From: Sulfitobacter sp. HGT1
GTDB lineage: Bacteria > Pseudomonadota > Alphaproteobacteria > Rhodobacterales > Rhodobacteraceae
DNA length: 64,000 nucleotides
Direction: 5' to 3'
Assembly (NCBI RefSeq): GCF_013282155.1
Contig: NZ_BLWI01000001.1
Coordinates: forward strand, 62,001 to 126,000
In this document: one piece after another, positions 3,896 through 19,766 of the stretch
Position numbering within the stretch: position 1 is the first letter of the stretch
Layout of the letters: each line of letters begins with the position of its first letter
Translations under genes and position numbers: made by a program
The notes under the pieces: generated by a model
The model's input: only the letters and a program-made list of their open reading frames with translations
Told to the model about the DNA's origin: nothing
Database searches by the model: none

Positions 3896-5464
3896 TCAAC
3901 CAGCGTCTTTATAGCTGATTTCGCGTTTGTCGGTGCCGCCTCTTTCGCGGCGCACCAGCAAACGGTTGAGCGCGTGAATATAGGCTTGGGCTGAACTGAC
4001 GACTGTATCCGTGTTGGCGGCCTGCCCGGTCACGATGCGCCCGTCTTCCTCAAGCCGGACGGACACGGTCGCCTGCGCATCGGTGCCTTCGGTGACGGCG
4101 TGCACTTGATACAGTTGCAGGCGGGCGTTGTGATCAACCAAGGCTTTGATGCATTTGAACGACGCATCAACGGGGCCATCGCCGGTCTGTTCGGTGCTGA
4201 GTTCGGCCCCATCCACGGTCAGGGTCATCTTGGCCACGTTCGGCCCCTCGGTGCCGCAGACAACATGCATCGACTTCAGCTTGATCCGGTCGCTTTCAGG
4301 GTCTGCCGCTGTGCGCATCAAGGCAATCAGGTCTTCGTCATAGATTTCCTTTTTGCGATCGGCGAGTTCCTTGAACCGTACAAAGACGTCCTTGAGCTGG
4401 TTGTCGCCCAATTCGTAGCCAAGGTTTTCGAGCTTGGAGCGCAACGCGGCGCGGCCCGAATGTTTGCCCATGACGATATTGGTTTCGGTCAGGCCCACAT
4501 CTTCGGGGCGCATGATCTCGAATGTTTCGGCGTTTTTCAGCATCCCGTCCTGGTGGATGCCGCTTTCGTGGGCAAAGGCGTTCTTGCCGACGATGGCCTT
4601 GTTGAACTGCACCGCAAAGCCCGACACGGTCGCAACACGGCGCGAGATGTTCATCAGCTTGGTGCTGTCCACGCCCGTCTGATAGGGCATGATGTCGTTG
4701 CGCACCTTCATGGCCATCACGACTTCTTCCAGCGCGGTGTTGCCAGCGCGTTCGCCAAGCCCGTTGATGGTACATTCGATCTGACGGGCACCCGCCTCGA
4801 CGGCGGCAAGGCTGTTGGCGGTCGCCATACCAAGGTCGTTGTGGCAATGGGTAGCAAAGATGATCTCGTCCGCGCCGGGCACGTTTTCCAGCAGCTTGCG
4901 GATCAATTCGGCGCTTTCGCGCGGCGCGGTATAGCCGACGGTGTCGGGGATGTTGATTGTGGTCGCCCCCGCCTTGATCGCGATTTCGACGGTGCGGTAC
5001 AGATAATCCAGCTCTGTCCGGGTGGCATCCATCGGGGACCATTGCACGTTGTCACACAGATTGCGCGCATGGGTGACGGTCTCGTGAATCCGCTCGGCCA
5101 TTTCATCCATGGTGAGGTTCGGAATGGCGCGGTGCAGCGGCGAGGTGCCGATAAATGTGTGAATGCGTGGTTGGGCTGCGTGCTTCACGGCATCCCAGCA
5201 GCGGTCGATATCGCCAAGCTGCGCACGGGCCAGACCGCAGATCACCGAATTCTTCGACAGTTTTGCAATCTCGCTGACGGCGGCAAAGTCACCCTCGGAA
5301 GCGATGGGGAAGCCGGCTTCGATGATATCGACGCCCATTTCGTCCAGCAGGCCGGCGATTTCGATCTTTTCGGCATGGGTCATGGTTGCACCGGGCGATT
5401 GTTCGCCATCGCGCAACGTCGTGTCAAAGATCAAGACGCGGTCTTGTTTGGTCGTATCGGTCAT
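3896..5464 (-). CDS. leuA: 2-isopropylmalate synthase
   Basis: First committed step of leucine synthesis: acetyl-CoA plus 2-oxoisovalerate gives 2-isopropylmalate. The 522 residues match the long bacterial LeuA form. The DRE-TIM barrel starts with the signature FDTTLRDGEQSPGATMT. The metal-binding HCHNDLGMATANSLAAVEAG and the GNTALEEVVMAM segment follow. The C-terminal third is the leucine-binding regulatory domain (CGTEGPNVAKMTLTVDG onwards), so feedback inhibition is expected. The gene is monocistronic here. Upstream is a leader peptide with a leucine run and alternative hairpins, so transcription is probably attenuated by leucyl-tRNA supply. Confidence 0.97.
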   Translation of the reverse strand: MTDTTKQDRVLIFDTTLRDGEQSPGATMTHAEKIEIAGLLDEMGVDIIEAGFPIASEGDFAAVSEIAKLSKNSVICGLARAQLGDIDRCWDAVKHAAQPRIHTFIGTSPLHRAIPNLTMDEMAERIHETVTHARNLCDNVQWSPMDATRTELDYLYRTVEIAIKAGATTINIPDTVGYTAPRESAELIRKLLENVPGADEIIFATHCHNDLGMATANSLAAVEAGARQIECTINGLGERAGNTALEEVVMAMKVRNDIMPYQTGVDSTKLMNISRRVATVSGFAVQFNKAIVGKNAFAHESGIHQDGMLKNAETFEIMRPEDVGLTETNIVMGKHSGRAALRSKLENLGYELGDNQLKDVFVRFKELADRKKEIYDEDLIALMRTAADPESDRIKLKSMHVVCGTEGPNVAKMTLTVDGAELSTEQTGDGPVDASFKCIKALVDHNARLQLYQVHAVTEGTDAQATVSVRLEEDGRIVTGQAANTDTVVSSAQAYIHALNRLLVRRERGGTDKREISYKDAG

Positions 5465-5499
5465 GTTTTGGGTTCTTTCATTCTGCTTTTCAAATCCTT

Positions 5500-5550
5500 G
5501 GCGCGCTGCACATCCCTCTGAGCGGGCGCGCCGGATGGCACGCTCAGAGG
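5500..5550 (-). promoter_or_regulatory. leuA attenuator: two mutually exclusive hairpins
   Basis: On the minus strand, arm CCTCTGAGCG (5550-5541) pairs perfectly with CGCTCAGAGG (5524-5515). Alternatively GGCGCGC (5532-5526), in the loop of the first hairpin, pairs perfectly with GCGCGCC (5506-5500). The two structures cannot form together. A further GCGCGCC lies inside the leader peptide near 5585-5600 and could compete for the same arm. Neither hairpin has a U-tract, so control may act by another route than a classical intrinsic terminator. Confidence 0.65.
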
Positions 5551-5630
5551 CGGATTAGCAGGAGTAGGTTTGCACACAGCGACGGCGCGCTGGCGCGCGT
5601 CAGGGTCGGTGTATGATCAGCATAAGTCAT
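5544..5630 (-). CDS. leuL: Leucine leader peptide of the leuA attenuator (28 aa)
   Basis: A short frame, ATG at 5628-5630 and TGA at 5544-5546, encodes 28 residues ending SLCANLLLLIRL. It has four consecutive leucine codons (CTA CTC CTG CTA) and another Leu just before the stop; CTA is a rare codon in this GC-rich DNA. The stop lies inside the 5-prime arm of a 10-bp hairpin, and an alternative pairing follows. This is the layout of a ribosome-stalling amino acid attenuator. No SD precedes the ATG. A TATAAC -10 candidate ends 7 nt upstream, so the transcript may be leaderless. The symbol is by analogy with leuL; the peptide reading is direct, the mechanism inferred. Confidence 0.8.
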   Translation of the reverse strand: MTYADHTPTLTRASAPSLCANLLLLIRL

Positions 5631-5637
5631 GGGGCAC

Positions 5638-5667
5638 GTTATACTGCTGCGAACCCAAATGGGAAGA
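5638..5667 (-). promoter_or_regulatory. Candidate promoter of the leuL-leuA transcript
   Basis: TATAAC at 5643-5638 is a good -10 box; the -35 region (CTTCCC/TTCCCA around 5661-5666) is weak. A start 6-8 nt after the -10 box would fall on the A of the leader ATG, giving a leaderless mRNA. Confidence 0.4.
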
Positions 5668-5729
5668 GTTTTTTGGCTCGTTTCGATTGGCGATATTGAA
5701 GGGCGCAGTTTGCCTGCTACTTGAGGTCT

Positions 5730-6395
5730 ATGAAACAGATTTTGATTATTGGCGCGTCAGGCGGGGTCGGATCGGCTCTGGCGGCTGCATATACGGCACG
5801 TGGTGATCAGGTGACGGGCCTGTCGCGGTCGGTTGACGGATTGGACCTGACGGACGAGGCGAGCGTCGAGGCGCATATCGGCGCGCTGGATGGCCCCTTT
5901 GATGTGGTCATCGTCACGTCTGGCGCGCTTGAGATTGACGGGGCAGAGCCGGAAAAGACCATCAAATCCATCACTCAAAAGGCGATGATGGACCAGTTTG
6001 CGCTGAACGCGGTTGGCCCTGCGCTGGTCTTGCGCCATGCGCCCGACCTTTTGCGCCGCGACGGGCGTGGCGTTTTTGCGGTGCTGTCGGCACGGGTTGG
6101 GTCGATTGGCGACAACAGGATCGGTGGTTGGATCAGCTATCGCAGCGCCAAGGCGGCGGTGAACCAGATTGTGCATACCAGCGCCATCGAACTGGCGCGG
6201 TCGCACAAGCAAAGCATTTGCGTGGCGCTGCATCCCGGAACGGTCAAGACGCCATTCACCGAAAAATACCTTGCCCGCCATCCTGCGGTCGCAGCATCGG
6301 AGGCGGCGGAAAACCTAATGTCGGTGATCGACGGTTTGACGCCTGAACAGACGGGTCAGTTCTTTGACTGGGCCGGAAAGGTAGTGCCATGGTAG
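5730..6395 (+). CDS. Short-chain dehydrogenase/reductase (C-factor/CsgA-like)
   Basis: NAD(P)-dependent oxidoreductase of the SDR superfamily, cytosolic, substrate unknown. The 221-residue protein begins MKQILIIGASGGVGSALAA, giving the Rossmann GxxxGxG motif at once. Catalytic residues are Ser in LSARVGSI and the SYRSAKAAV Tyr-x-x-x-Lys. A TTG at 5721 would add three residues, but the ATG at 5730 has GAGG at good spacing. It overlaps the photolyase gene by 7 nt and is co-transcribed with it, an arrangement that suggests a light or stress context. Confidence 0.88.
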   Translation: MKQILIIGASGGVGSALAAAYTARGDQVTGLSRSVDGLDLTDEASVEAHIGALDGPFDVVIVTSGALEIDGAEPEKTIKSITQKAMMDQFALNAVGPALVLRHAPDLLRRDGRGVFAVLSARVGSIGDNRIGGWISYRSAKAAVNQIVHTSAIELARSHKQSICVALHPGTVKTPFTEKYLARHPAVAASEAAENLMSVIDGLTPEQTGQFFDWAGKVVPW

Positions 6396-15104: not shown

Positions 15105-15113
15105 ATAGCCACC

Positions 15114-15268
15114 GTAACGGGAGAACTGGGGAAACCCGGTGCCGAAGGAGCAACCGCCCCGGAAACTCTCAGGCAAATGGACCGTTGCGTGACCGAAAAA
15201 CTCTGGAGAGTGGTGCCACATGCACCCGCCGAAGGGATAACGATCTCAGGCGAAAGGACAGAGGGGGC
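15114..15268 (+). ncRNA. Tandem glycine riboswitch (two aptamers)
   Basis: Aptamer 1 (about 15118-15186) has CGGGAGAAC, GCCGAAGGAGCAACC, AAACTCTCAGGCAAATGGACC. Aptamer 2 (about 15199-15267) has CTCTGGAGAG, CGCCGAAGGGATAACG, ATCTCAGGCGAAAGGACAG. These are the conserved blocks of the gcvT glycine RNA, and the two aptamers are joined by a short linker as usual. It sits in the 5-prime UTR of gcvT-gcvH-gcvP, where glycine binding normally turns the operon on. Confidence 0.97.
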
Positions 15269-15345: not shown

Positions 15346-15352
15346 TGTGACC

Positions 15353-16477
15353 ATGAGCGATCTGCACCAAACCCCGTTATACGAACTGCATTTGGAATTG
15401 GGCGGTAAAATGGTGCCCTTTGCGGGGTATTCGATGCCCGTGCAATACCCGATGGGCGTGATGAAAGAACACCTGCACACGCGCAGCCAGGCGGGCCTGT
15501 TTGACGTCAGTCACATGGGGCAGGTGATGCTGTCTGGTGCGTCCTGGGAGGCCGTTGCGGCTGCGTTTGAAACGCTGGTGCCGATGGATGTGCTGGGGCT
15601 GGCAGACGGGCGGCAACGCTATGGGTTGTTCACCAATGACACGGGCGGGATCGAGGATGACCTGATGTTCGCACGGCGTGGCGATGACCTGTTTGTCGTG
15701 GTCAATGCCGCCTGCAAGGGCGCGGATATCGCGCGGATGAAAGCCGCTCTTGAACCTGAAGTAACGGTGACACCGATCACCGATCGCGCATTGATCGCGG
15801 TGCAAGGGCCAACGGCCGCAGCGGCGGTTGCGTCGCTGGATGCGGCGGCGGCGGATATGCGGTTTATGGATTTTGGCACTTTGAACCTGGACGGGATCGA
15901 GGTCTGGGCATCGCGGTCCGGCTATACCGGCGAAGACGGGTTCGAGATTTCAGTGGCTGATGCGGAGGCCGAAACGCTTGCGCGGCGGTTGCTGGCGCTG
16001 GACGGCGTCGAGGCGATCGGATTGGGCGCGCGGGATTCCCTGCGGCTTGAGGCGGGCCTGTGCCTGTATGGCAATGACATTGACGCCCAGACCAACCCGG
16101 TCGAGGCGAGCTTGACCTGGGCGATCCAAAAGGTGCGCCGTAAGGGTGGCGACCGCGAAGGTGGCTATCCGGGGGCCGACGCGGTGCAAAAGGCGTTCGA
16201 GGGCGGTGTGGCGCGCAAGCGTGTCGGGCTGGCCCCGCAGGGCCGCGCGCCGATGCGCGAAGGCACGCAGCTATATGATGCCGAAGACGGCGGTCGGCTG
16301 GTGGGCAGTGTTACCTCGGGCAGTTTCGGACCGACTTTGGGCGGGCCTGTTGCCATGGGCTATGTCGGTGATGAATATGCCAGCGTGGACACCGCGCTGT
16401 GGGGCGAGGTGCGCGGCAAGCGGTTGCCTGTCCGTGTGGCCAAGCTGCCCTTTGTGGCGGCGAATTTTAAGCGATAA
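15353..16477 (+). CDS. gcvT: Glycine cleavage system T protein (aminomethyltransferase)
   Basis: Transfers the methylene group from the aminomethyl-lipoyl H protein to tetrahydrofolate, releasing ammonia. 374 residues, the usual size. The N-terminal folate-binding domain shows TPLYELHLELGGKMVPFAGY and GLFDVSHMGQVMLSG; the C-terminal barrel ends with GGPVAMGYVGDEYAS. The start MSDLHQTPLYE at 15353 has SD AGAAGAGG nine bases away; a GTG six bases upstream is less likely. First gene of gcvT-H-P, behind the glycine riboswitch. Confidence 0.97.
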   Translation: MSDLHQTPLYELHLELGGKMVPFAGYSMPVQYPMGVMKEHLHTRSQAGLFDVSHMGQVMLSGASWEAVAAAFETLVPMDVLGLADGRQRYGLFTNDTGGIEDDLMFARRGDDLFVVVNAACKGADIARMKAALEPEVTVTPITDRALIAVQGPTAAAAVASLDAAAADMRFMDFGTLNLDGIEVWASRSGYTGEDGFEISVADAEAETLARRLLALDGVEAIGLGARDSLRLEAGLCLYGNDIDAQTNPVEASLTWAIQKVRRKGGDREGGYPGADAVQKAFEGGVARKRVGLAPQGRAPMREGTQLYDAEDGGRLVGSVTSGSFGPTLGGPVAMGYVGDEYASVDTALWGEVRGKRLPVRVAKLPFVAANFKR

Positions 16478-16922: not shown

Positions 16923-19766
16923 ATGGTTTTCAAGCCAACCGAATATTTGCCGTATGATTTTGCCAACCGCAGACATATCGGGCCGTCTCCGGCGGAAATG
17001 TCGGATATGCTCAAGACTGTGGGGGCGCAAAGCCTTGCGGCGTTGATTGACGATACAATGCCCGCCAAGATCCGCCAGAAACAGCCGCTGGATTTTGGCA
17101 AGCCCATGTCGGAGCGCGAAGTGCTGGAGCACATGCGCGTGGTGGCGGGCAAGAACAAGGTGCTGACCTCGCTGATCGGGCAGGGGTATCACGGGACGGT
17201 CACGCCGCCTGCGATCCAGCGCAATATCTTTGAGAACCCCGCCTGGTACACGGCCTATACGCCGTATCAGCCCGAGATCAGCCAGGGCCGGCTTGAGGCG
17301 TTGTTGAACTTTCAGACCATGATCAGTGATTTGACCGGGCTTGAGATCGCCAATGCGTCCTTGCTGGACGAGGCGACGGCTTGTGCCGAAGCGATGACCA
17401 TGGCGATGCGGGTTGCGAAGTCGAAGGCCAAGGCGTTTTTCGTGGACCGCGATTGCCATCCGCAGAATATCGCCGTGATCCAGACCCGTGCAGCCCCGTT
17501 GGACATCGAAGTGATCATCGGGGACCCCGACAAGATGGATGCGAGCGCCGTCTTTGGGGCGTTGTTCCAGTATCCCGGCACTTACGGCCATGTGCGTGAT
17601 TTCACATCGCATATCGCAGCGTTGCATGATGCCGGTGCGTTGGGGATTGTGACCGCTGACCCGATGGCGCTGACTTTGCTGAAGGAACCCGGCGCGATGG
17701 GGGCCGATATCGCTGTGGGTTCAACCCAGCGGTTTGGTGTGCCCGAAGGCTACGGTGGCCCGCATGCGGCTTATATGGCGTGCAAGGACGCCTATAAGCG
17801 GGCGATGCCGGGGCGGATTGTGGGTGTGTCGATTGATGCCCATGGCAACCGCGCCTACCGCCTGTCGCTGCAAACCCGCGAGCAACATATCCGCCGTGAA
17901 AAGGCGACATCGAACGTATGTACGGCGCAGGCGTTGCTGGCCGTGATGGCGTCGATGTATGCGGTGTTCCACGGGCCCGAGGGGTTGAAAGCCATCGCAC
18001 AGCGCATCCACCGCAAGACCGTGCGGCTGGCGAACGGGCTGGAGGAAGCCGGGTTCAAGGTTGATCCGCAGGCGTTCTTTGACACAATTACCGTTGACGT
18101 CGGCCCGTTGCAGGCGGCCGTGATGAAATCAGCGGTGGACGAAGGCATCAACCTGCGCCGCGTTGGCGAAACCCGCGTTGGTATTTCGCTGGACGAGCGG
18201 AGTGTGTCTGCGACCATCGAAGCGGTCTGGCGTGCCTTTGGCATCGTCAAAAGCGACGAGAAATTCGAGGCGCAGTACCGGTTCCCCGAAAAGATGATGC
18301 GCGAGAGCGAGTATCTGACCCACCCGATTTTCCACATGAACCGTGCCGAGACCGAGATGATGCGTTACATGCGCCGCCTTGCCGACCGTGATCTGGCCTT
18401 GGACCGCGCAATGATCCCGCTGGGGTCGTGCACAATGAAGCTGAACTCGGCTGCGGAAATGATGCCTGTCAGCTGGCGAGAATTTTCGATGATCCACCCG
18501 TTTGTGCCGCAAGATCAGGCGCTTGGGTACAAACACATGATCGACGATCTGTCGGCCAAGCTGTGCGATATCACCGGCTATGACGCGATTTCCATGCAGC
18601 CCAATTCGGGTGCGCAGGGGGAATATGCGGGCCTGCTGGCGATTGCCGCCTATCACCGCGCCAATGGCGAAGCGCACCGCAACATCTGTCTGATTCCGAT
18701 GTCGGCCCATGGTACAAACCCCGCCAGCGCCAATATGGTCGGCTGGAAGGTCGTCGTGATCAAAACCGCCGCCAATGGTGATATCGATCTGGAGGACTTC
18801 CGCGAGAAGGCCGAAAAGCATAGCGAAAATCTGGCCGGTTGCATGATCACCTATCCGTCGACCCACGGGGTGTTCGAGGAAACGGTAACCGAAGTCACGC
18901 GCATCACCCATGATCATGGCGGTCAGGTCTATATCGACGGGGCCAATATGAACGCGATGGTCGGGCTTGCCCGGCCCGGTGATGTGGGCGGCGATGTCAG
19001 CCACCTGAACCTGCACAAGACGTTCTGCATTCCCCATGGCGGCGGTGGCCCCGGCATGGGCCCGATTGGTGTCAAATCGCATCTGATCCCCTATATCCCC
19101 GGCCATCCGAATGGCGGTGAGGGGGCGGTTTCTGCGGCACCTTACGGGTCGCCATCCTTGTTGCCGATTTCATGGTCGTACTGCCTGATGATGGGCGGCG
19201 ACGGGCTGACACAGGCGACGCGGGTTGCTATTTTGAACGCCAACTACATCGCCAAGCGGCTCGAAGGGGCCTATGACGTGCTGTACAAAGGGCCGACGGG
19301 GCGCGTCGCGCATGAATGTATCTTTGACGTGCGTCCGTTTGAGGAAAGTGCAGGCGTTACGGTCGATGACGTCGCCAAGCGCCTGATTGATGCGGGTTTC
19401 CACGCCCCGACGATGAGCTTCCCTGTGGCGGGCACGCTGATGGTGGAGCCGACGGAATCCGAGACCAAAGCCGAGCTGGACCGTTTCTGCGATGCGATGC
19501 TGGCGATCCGCGAGGAAATCCGTGCGATTGAAAACGGTGATATGCCGCGTGAGAATAACGCGCTGAAAAATGCGCCGCACACGGTCGAGGATCTGGTGGG
19601 CGATTGGGACCGGCCCTACACGCGCGAGCAAGGGTGTTTTCCCCCCGGTGCGTTCCGCGTCGATAAATACTGGCCGCCGGTTAACCGCGTGGACAATGTG
19701 CATGGCGACCGCAACCTGATCTGCACCTGCCCGCCGTTGTCGGATTACGCAGAAGCGGCAGAATAA
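16923..19766 (+). CDS. gcvP: Glycine dehydrogenase (decarboxylating), P protein
   Basis: PLP enzyme that decarboxylates glycine and loads the aminomethyl group on GcvH. 947 residues in the fused (alpha plus beta) form, starting [20 protein letters not shown]. The PLP lysine is Lys699 in [33 protein letters not shown] and [16 protein letters not shown] are further hallmarks. Third gene of the riboswitch-controlled operon; only lpd, shared with other complexes, is missing locally. A hairpin at 19773 ends the operon. Confidence 0.98.

Follow-up and report, generated by a model that had tools for sequence, protein, structure and literature searches.

A regulatory leader, the LEU element, was predicted in 2005 upstream of actinobacterial leuA (Seliverstov et al., PMC1262725). 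It consists of a leader open reading frame (ORF) with a leucine run, a pseudoknot, a base stem between the leucine run and the leuA Shine-Dalgarno sequence (SD), and an alternative hairpin (PMC1262725). Earlier Streptomyces coelicolor mutants with changes in the leuA leader peptide did not fit classical attenuation; a binding protein was favoured for the element, and its mode of action was left open (PMC1262725). Two further systems share single traits with the leader described below. As far as the accessible part of the source goes (PMC10117765), trpL of Sinorhizobium meliloti is a leaderless attenuator yielding an sRNA; like the present leader, which is probably leaderless too, it is a short alphaproteobacterial ORF containing control codons, but it concerns another amino acid and gene and is an sRNA-yielding attenuator, no terminator being seen before leuA here. 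Mycobacterial polycysteine ORFs, amino-acid-responsive attenuators according to the title of Canestrari et al. (2020), are likewise short and, as the present leader probably is, leaderless, but concern cysteine and other operons.

The region before leuA was analysed in a window of 64,000 nucleotides from Sulfitobacter sp. HGT1. Its leader resembles the LEU element in position before leuA, in a leucine-run ORF, a pseudoknot, a base stem built on leucine codons and an alternative inner hairpin. It differs in looking leaderless, and in its base stem, which covers the SD in the LEU element but in the family of Sulfitobacter ends 18 nt before the start codon. The stop codon lies inside a hairpin arm (H1), whereas in a Microbacterium leader it lies in the loop. 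Unlike the pseudoknot of the LEU element, the pseudoknot helix is not above chance in most other Alphaproteobacteria examined. The principle is already known as an actinobacterial prediction. No alphaproteobacterial leuA leader of this kind was reported in the open literature searched; Vitreschak et al. (2004) and Lopatovskaya et al. (2010) may mention one. Four traits are new relative to the literature found: the spread across Alphaproteobacteria, a start that looks leaderless, the location of the stop codon within H1, and an outer helix (H3) that is shifted.

Leader peptide and promoter

The element lies at 5483-5630, upstream of leuA at 3896-5464 (Table 1). An earlier note, made from the letters of the window, had proposed a leucine leader-peptide attenuator here; its observation was confirmed and its interpretation partly supported. 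The 28-codon frame that it described is present, with the translation MTYADHTPTLTRASAPSLCANLLLLIRL-stop and the C-terminus ANLLLLIRL. The identity of leuA was established by profiles above their cut-offs, and the leader is conserved in relatives. The codon CTA, which occurs twice in the run, makes up 1.9% of the leucine codons (26 of 1343) across 32 long window frames, but 128 of the 536 leucine codons within the last eight codons of 111 leaders.

Table 1. Features of the leuA leader region, in window coordinates
Feature	Position	Strand	Basis
-35-like CTTCCC	5661..5666	-	17 nt before -10 box; sequence
-10 box TATAAC	5638..5643	-	ends 7 nt before leader ATG; sequence
Leader ORF, 28 codons, ending LLLLIRL-stop	5544..5630	-	probably leaderless
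Leucine codon run CTA CTC CTG CTA	5556..5567	-	sequence; codon counts
H3 5' arm CUGCUAAUCC, last two codons of the leucine run and Ile codon	5552..5561	-	predicted fold; own-versus-other pairing
H1 5' arm CCUCUGAGCG, stop codon (UGA) inside	5541..5550	-	10 bp in 99/104 leaders; covariation
GCC, alternative partner (to S2) of GGC (5532-5530)	5537..5539	-	98.2% of cells paired; predicted fold
S2 (pseudoknot helix) 5' arm GGCGCGC, in H1 loop	5526..5532	-	family alignment
H1 3' arm CGCUCAGAGG	5515..5524	-	covariation
S2 3' arm GCGCGCC	5500..5506	-	family alignment
H3 3' arm GGAUU (5497-5493), bulge, AGCAG (5487-5483)	5483..5497	-	ends 18 nt before leuA start
Candidate leuA ribosome site GAAAGAA	5473..5479	-	sequence; putative assignment
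leuA, 2-isopropylmalate synthase	3896..5464	-	NF002087, NF002086, TIGR00973, all above cut-offs

The -10 box stands exactly where the earlier note had placed it. For counts of its spacing in relatives, whichever in-frame ATG lay closest to a point 27 codons ahead of the stop was taken as the leader ATG. Among 111 distinct leaders, the best TATAAT-like hexamer ended 5-9 nt before this ATG in 96 (exactly 7 nt in 67), against 112 of 1110 shuffled upstreams at 5-9 nt. The motif CTTnnC at a spacer of 17 was found in 77 of the 100 family leaders having a -10 box, counted without a shuffle control. An SD-like motif preceded the leader ATG in 3 of the 111. The leaderless start that had been suggested thus gains strong but indirect support from the conserved spacing, and the leader ORF is probably leaderless.

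Three further observations concern short frames and repeats at this locus. Many leader peptides start with MTxxxHI or similar (5613-5630, minus strand, in the window, and in relatives; MTH in 24 of 111, HI judged by eye), and this start is shared despite the expectation that the start of a leader peptide drifts freely. The heptamer GCGCGCC occurs twice within the leader ORF (5584-5590 and 5592-5598, minus strand); since it is identical to the S2 3' arm, these copies might compete for the H1 loop. A six-codon ORF (5461-5481, minus strand, MKEPKT-stop) overlaps the start codon of leuA (ATGA); it was discounted, since on visual comparison it is retained in the closest relatives only.

Conservation in the family

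The family set comprised 121 leuA upstream regions, from 40 same-genus genomes, 80 named loci and the window. The named loci were nearly all from Rhodobacteraceae, with a few near relatives or unplaced Alphaproteobacteria, and some genomes occur twice among the 121. A filter for an ORF ending in a leucine-rich run found a leader in 112 regions (104 once identical leaders were removed), and all nine misses were matched by a covariance model (R1), so that the element was found upstream of leuA in 121 of 121 regions. Five of the nine lay at the usual place; in L063, L066, L076 and L100 the R1 match lay 400-500 nt upstream of leuA. A small gene, cupin-like by eye, lies between element and leuA in L076 (L076:1123-1479, plus strand, 118 aa), and the other three carry stretches that resemble it by eye, which suggests an operon of leader, small gene and leuA in some genera.

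An independent scan required at least three leucine codons among the last nine before a stop, with the stop inside a hairpin arm of at least 7 bp. It picked out 116 of the 121 family upstreams; the corresponding figures were 10 of 363 for dinucleotide-shuffled sequences and 18 of 121 for the reverse strand. The earlier note had suggested aligning leuA upstream regions; in the alignment, the leucine run and the pairing are conserved, and compensatory changes are seen in H1 and, in small number, in S2.

The distance from leader stop to leuA has a median of 79 nt and is occupied by conserved structure. This spacing bears on a reading in which the leader, without sensing leucine, serves mainly to boost leuA translation through reinitiation or ribosome delivery. 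A general hypothesis of that kind is found in the accessible part of PMC4833913, but a structured gap of such length, and a conserved leucine run for which reinitiation has no need, make it very improbable here.

Stop-codon hairpin and pseudoknot

The 10-bp hairpin with the stop codon in one arm, as described in the earlier note, is exact in the window. Of 104 leaders, 99 have an H1 of 10 bp; in the other five it measures 5-8 bp. In an alignment of 77 leaders, from which rows with a short H1 were excluded, every H1 cell of the 76 distinct rows pairs, and two pairs show double changes. In 60 leaders taken class-wide, 98.0% of H1 cells pair, a figure biased because these leaders were picked by a scan demanding a pairing stop-codon arm; 7 of the 10 pairs change on both sides. 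Double-change cells numbered 46, against 12.9 in shuffles, and slid partners paired in 26-56%. The stop codon covaries with its partner in H1 (UGA with UCA, UAG with CUA).

The second, 7-bp GC helix (S2) that had been reported is also exact in the window, but the claim that it and the 10-bp hairpin exclude each other did not hold. S2 lies between the H1 loop and the RNA 3' of H1, so the two can form together, in an H-type pseudoknot topology that is kept in the family. Mutually exclusive hairpins were therefore set aside as the switch. An inner GCC:GGC pairing nonetheless competes with S2; 98.2% of its cells pair, with one-sided changes only. The six core pairs of S2 are paired in 97.3% of family cells; one pair switches from CG to UA in 5 rows, and the flanking pair shows 9 double changes. 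The S2 pairing score in the family was 19.8 for own arms, 13.1 for shuffled and 18.1 for cross-species arms; since the cross-species score is close to the own score, S2 reflects mostly sequence conservation. As a class-wide feature S2 was not supported, its scores in 44 leaders from other families not being above chance (own 13.1, shuffled 13.5, cross 13.3).

Within the family, H1, its loop and S2 are very strongly conserved in sequence. This speaks for reading the pseudoknot as a protein-binding site, as proposed for the LEU element (PMC1262725), with the leader peptide secondary. Such a site does not call for the leucine run, the leaderless spacing and the H3 pairing at the leucine codons, all of which are kept, and S2 falls to chance level outside the family; we consider this reading improbable.

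Pairing of the leucine codons

The earlier note did not mention a third helix, H3, in which the leucine codons pair with a stretch preceding the leuA ribosome site. Its helix score in the family was 15.7 for own arms, 12.5 for cross-species and 11.6 for shuffled arms. Exact 6-mer complements were concentrated on the leucine codons (for example 15 against 1.6 expected) and vanished beyond them. Matching pentamers changed on both sides: leaders with CUUAG had a downstream CUAAG in 11 of 27 cases, and leaders with CUAAG had CUUAG in 4 of 7. In the other pentamer classes the exact partner was found for CUAAU in 3 of 40, CUAGC in 0 of 10, CUAAC in 0 of 7 and CUUAC in 0 of 5.

When positions 5570-5450 were folded, H3 was predicted around H1 without being forced (z -2.5), with GCC:GGC included; a fold from the leader ATG gave z -2.8 and a different outer pairing. 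H3 ends at a tight distance from the leuA start (median 18 nt in 58 leaders with a clear H3). In the window this base stem lies upstream of the likely leuA SD and has the median distance, whereas in several other Alphaproteobacteria the SD itself is covered.

Leaders beyond the family

R1 was run over 385 alphaproteobacterial genomes and matched 18, of which 13 belong to other families; this strict first look may miss weak leaders. LeuA is encoded downstream at all 18 loci, with a further coding stretch between at two (L127, L129). A class model, R2, matched at E <=0.001 64 of 84 leuA loci outside the family, these loci having been fetched by LeuA protein. With the 28 loci used to build R2 excluded, and also L152, L164, L166 and L170, whose genomes were already in R2, 32 of 52 matched. 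When R2 was run over 397 genomes of the phylum it matched 95, namely 94 Alphaproteobacteria and one weak match elsewhere (E 0.005), the match positions being mostly unchecked; of the 36 genomes from the same family, 34 were matched. Of 93 loci outside the family, 13 of which had entered the set through R1, the scan for a leucine run with its stop in a hairpin picked out 48; among shuffles it picked out 13 of 279.

Outside the family the leader peptide often ends in LRLxxP or LLLLIRP. In several of these leaders H3 falls on the leuA SD itself, as in L217, where UGGUCCUUCG pairs with CGAAGGACCA. H3 scores in 44 such leaders were 19.8 (own), 16.4 (shuffled) and 16.0 (cross); 12 of the 44 exceeded the 95th percentile of cross pairs, and 11 of the 44 that of shuffles. 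CUCCUU-like leucine codons complement AAGGAG, so sensing and repressing would share nucleotides.

There is a second leuA type, TIGR00970, whose cut-off is passed by Corynebacterium glutamicum; of 30 alphaproteobacterial loci with this type, R2 matched 2 at E <=0.001. Leaders of the same kind stand before leuA of this type at L244:1367-1436 and L252:3232-3291, so the two leuA families share the leader. In Actinobacteria, R2 matched 2 of 5 leuA loci, at 19-20 bits. H1 (10-12 bp) and S2 (5-7 bp) were rebuilt in leaders of Nonomuraea, Nocardia and Microbacterium (records from a plasmid collection, without shuffle control), and an H3 covering the SD was rebuilt in two of them, pairing GCUCCUU with GAGGAGC in Nonomuraea and GCUUCUUCUU with GAGAAGAAGC in Microbacterium. 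Among these actinobacterial leuA leaders, H3 was unconvincing in Nocardia, and in Tsukamurella the leucine run was not located. Common descent of the alphaproteobacterial and actinobacterial leaders appears likely.

Termination and access to the ribosome site

A terminator scan listed nothing on the minus strand of 5300-5800. In relatives, TTTT within 15 nt occurred after H1 in 2 of 104 leaders and after S2 in 3 of 104. These results bear out the remark in the earlier note that neither hairpin has a U-tract, and for lack of U-runs an intrinsic terminator was set aside. The leader had no match in Rfam 15 in the window, whether the gathering cut-off or a looser limit of E 5 was applied. From the enteric leu attenuator (leuL; Leu leader in Rfam) the window leader differs in having no Rfam match and no U-tract terminator, in a leucine run directly before the stop and in a leaderless-looking start. 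That the switch may differ from the enteric one, as had been suggested, agrees with the missing Rfam match and the rarity of TTTT after both helices. Elsewhere in the window, a glycine riboswitch aptamer (RF00504, 60 bits) lies at 15108-15194 on the plus strand, 153 nt before a 376-aa frame (15347-16477) that by eye resembles the glycine cleavage T protein; a 947-aa frame (16923-19766) is glycine dehydrogenase-like by eye.

Access to the leuA ribosome site was modelled by folding without pseudoknots, with the full leader compared with leaders masked at two stall positions. In 39 leaders outside the family, mean access was 0.39 for the full leader and 0.56 and 0.50 for the stalled ones; at the first stall position 13 of the 39 gained more than 0.2 and none lost that much. 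In 95 family leaders the means were 0.673 (full), 0.674 and 0.694 (stalled); changes above 0.2 were gains in 4 or 10 leaders and losses in 7 or 4, depending on the stall position. Modelled access in the window fell on stalling from 0.92 to 0.77 or 0.84. Real family leaders were slightly more open (0.67) than those with the ORF tail shuffled (0.62). The fold model thus supports masking of the site in other Alphaproteobacteria but not in Rhodobacteraceae, so for the latter we infer the masking step. Direct masking of the leuA ribosome site in the window species, which the model does not support, was retained only as blocking beside the site or via the pseudoknot.

Control-codon leader peptides in proteobacteria usually act on transcription. 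The main rival explanation is leucine-responsive transcription attenuation, in which the same leader peptide would set premature termination via Rho or a U-tract-independent terminator. The unchanged ribosome site in the family fold model leaves room for control before translation. Against it stand the empty terminator scan, the scarcity of U-runs (of 104 leaders, 102 have none after H1 and 101 none after S2), and the pairing, elsewhere in the class, of leucine codons with the leuA SD itself. On balance, transcription attenuation is judged rather unlikely.

Discussion

The most likely reading, with a little better than an even chance, is a leucine-responsive leader of the LEU-element type whose main effect is on the translation of leuA. 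What was observed is the peptide, the spacing of the promoter, the helices with their conservation, compensatory changes (in H1 and H3, and rarely in S2) and a missing U-tract; the leucine response, its direction and the action on translation we infer. In the window bacterium and its relatives, the leader probably raises LeuA output when leucine is short.

The architecture would comprise a leaderless leader peptide, the stop-codon hairpin H1, the pseudoknot helix S2 and an outer H3 built on the leucine codons. Transcription would start at the leader AUG or within a nucleotide or two of it, and the short ORF would be translated immediately. With ample leucyl-tRNA, the ribosome would reach the stop codon inside H1 and depart; H3, H1 and S2 would then fold into a compact knot right beside the leuA ribosome site and hold leuA initiation low. 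With scarce leucyl-tRNA, the ribosome would stall on the leucine codons, where it would cover part of H1 together with the 5' arm of H3; the knot would fail to close, and leuA would be translated.

This translational reading is favoured by the conservation of the leader in every family region and at 64 of the 84 loci outside, by the promoter spacing, by the covariation of H1, stop codon included, by the pairing evidence for H3 and its tight distance from leuA, and by the rarity of U-runs. Outside the family, the frequent placement of H3 on the leuA SD and the modelled rise in access on stalling are consistent with it. It is opposed by the fold model in the family, in which access is not predicted to rise, by the position of H3 in the window, beside rather than on the ribosome site, by the scarcity or lack of exact pentamer partners in the remaining H3 classes, and by the S. 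coelicolor mutants that do not fit classical attenuation (PMC1262725). A wider proposal, which we put forward tentatively and at somewhat less than an even chance, is that one terminator-free leucine-sensing leader is common to Alphaproteobacteria and Actinobacteria and to two leuA types. The leucine codons would themselves be the anti-ribosome-site strand, a leaderless ORF would bring the sensing ribosome first, and in Rhodobacteraceae the knot would block beside the site.

The joint changes, of the stop codon with its partner and of the leucine codons with the stretch before leuA, point to break-and-restore experiments. If the reading is true, the actinobacterial prediction of 2005 would extend to another phylum and to easily tested organisms, and a leader unmatched by Rfam 15 would set leucine synthesis in Rhodobacteraceae and in many of the Alphaproteobacteria that share this LeuA.
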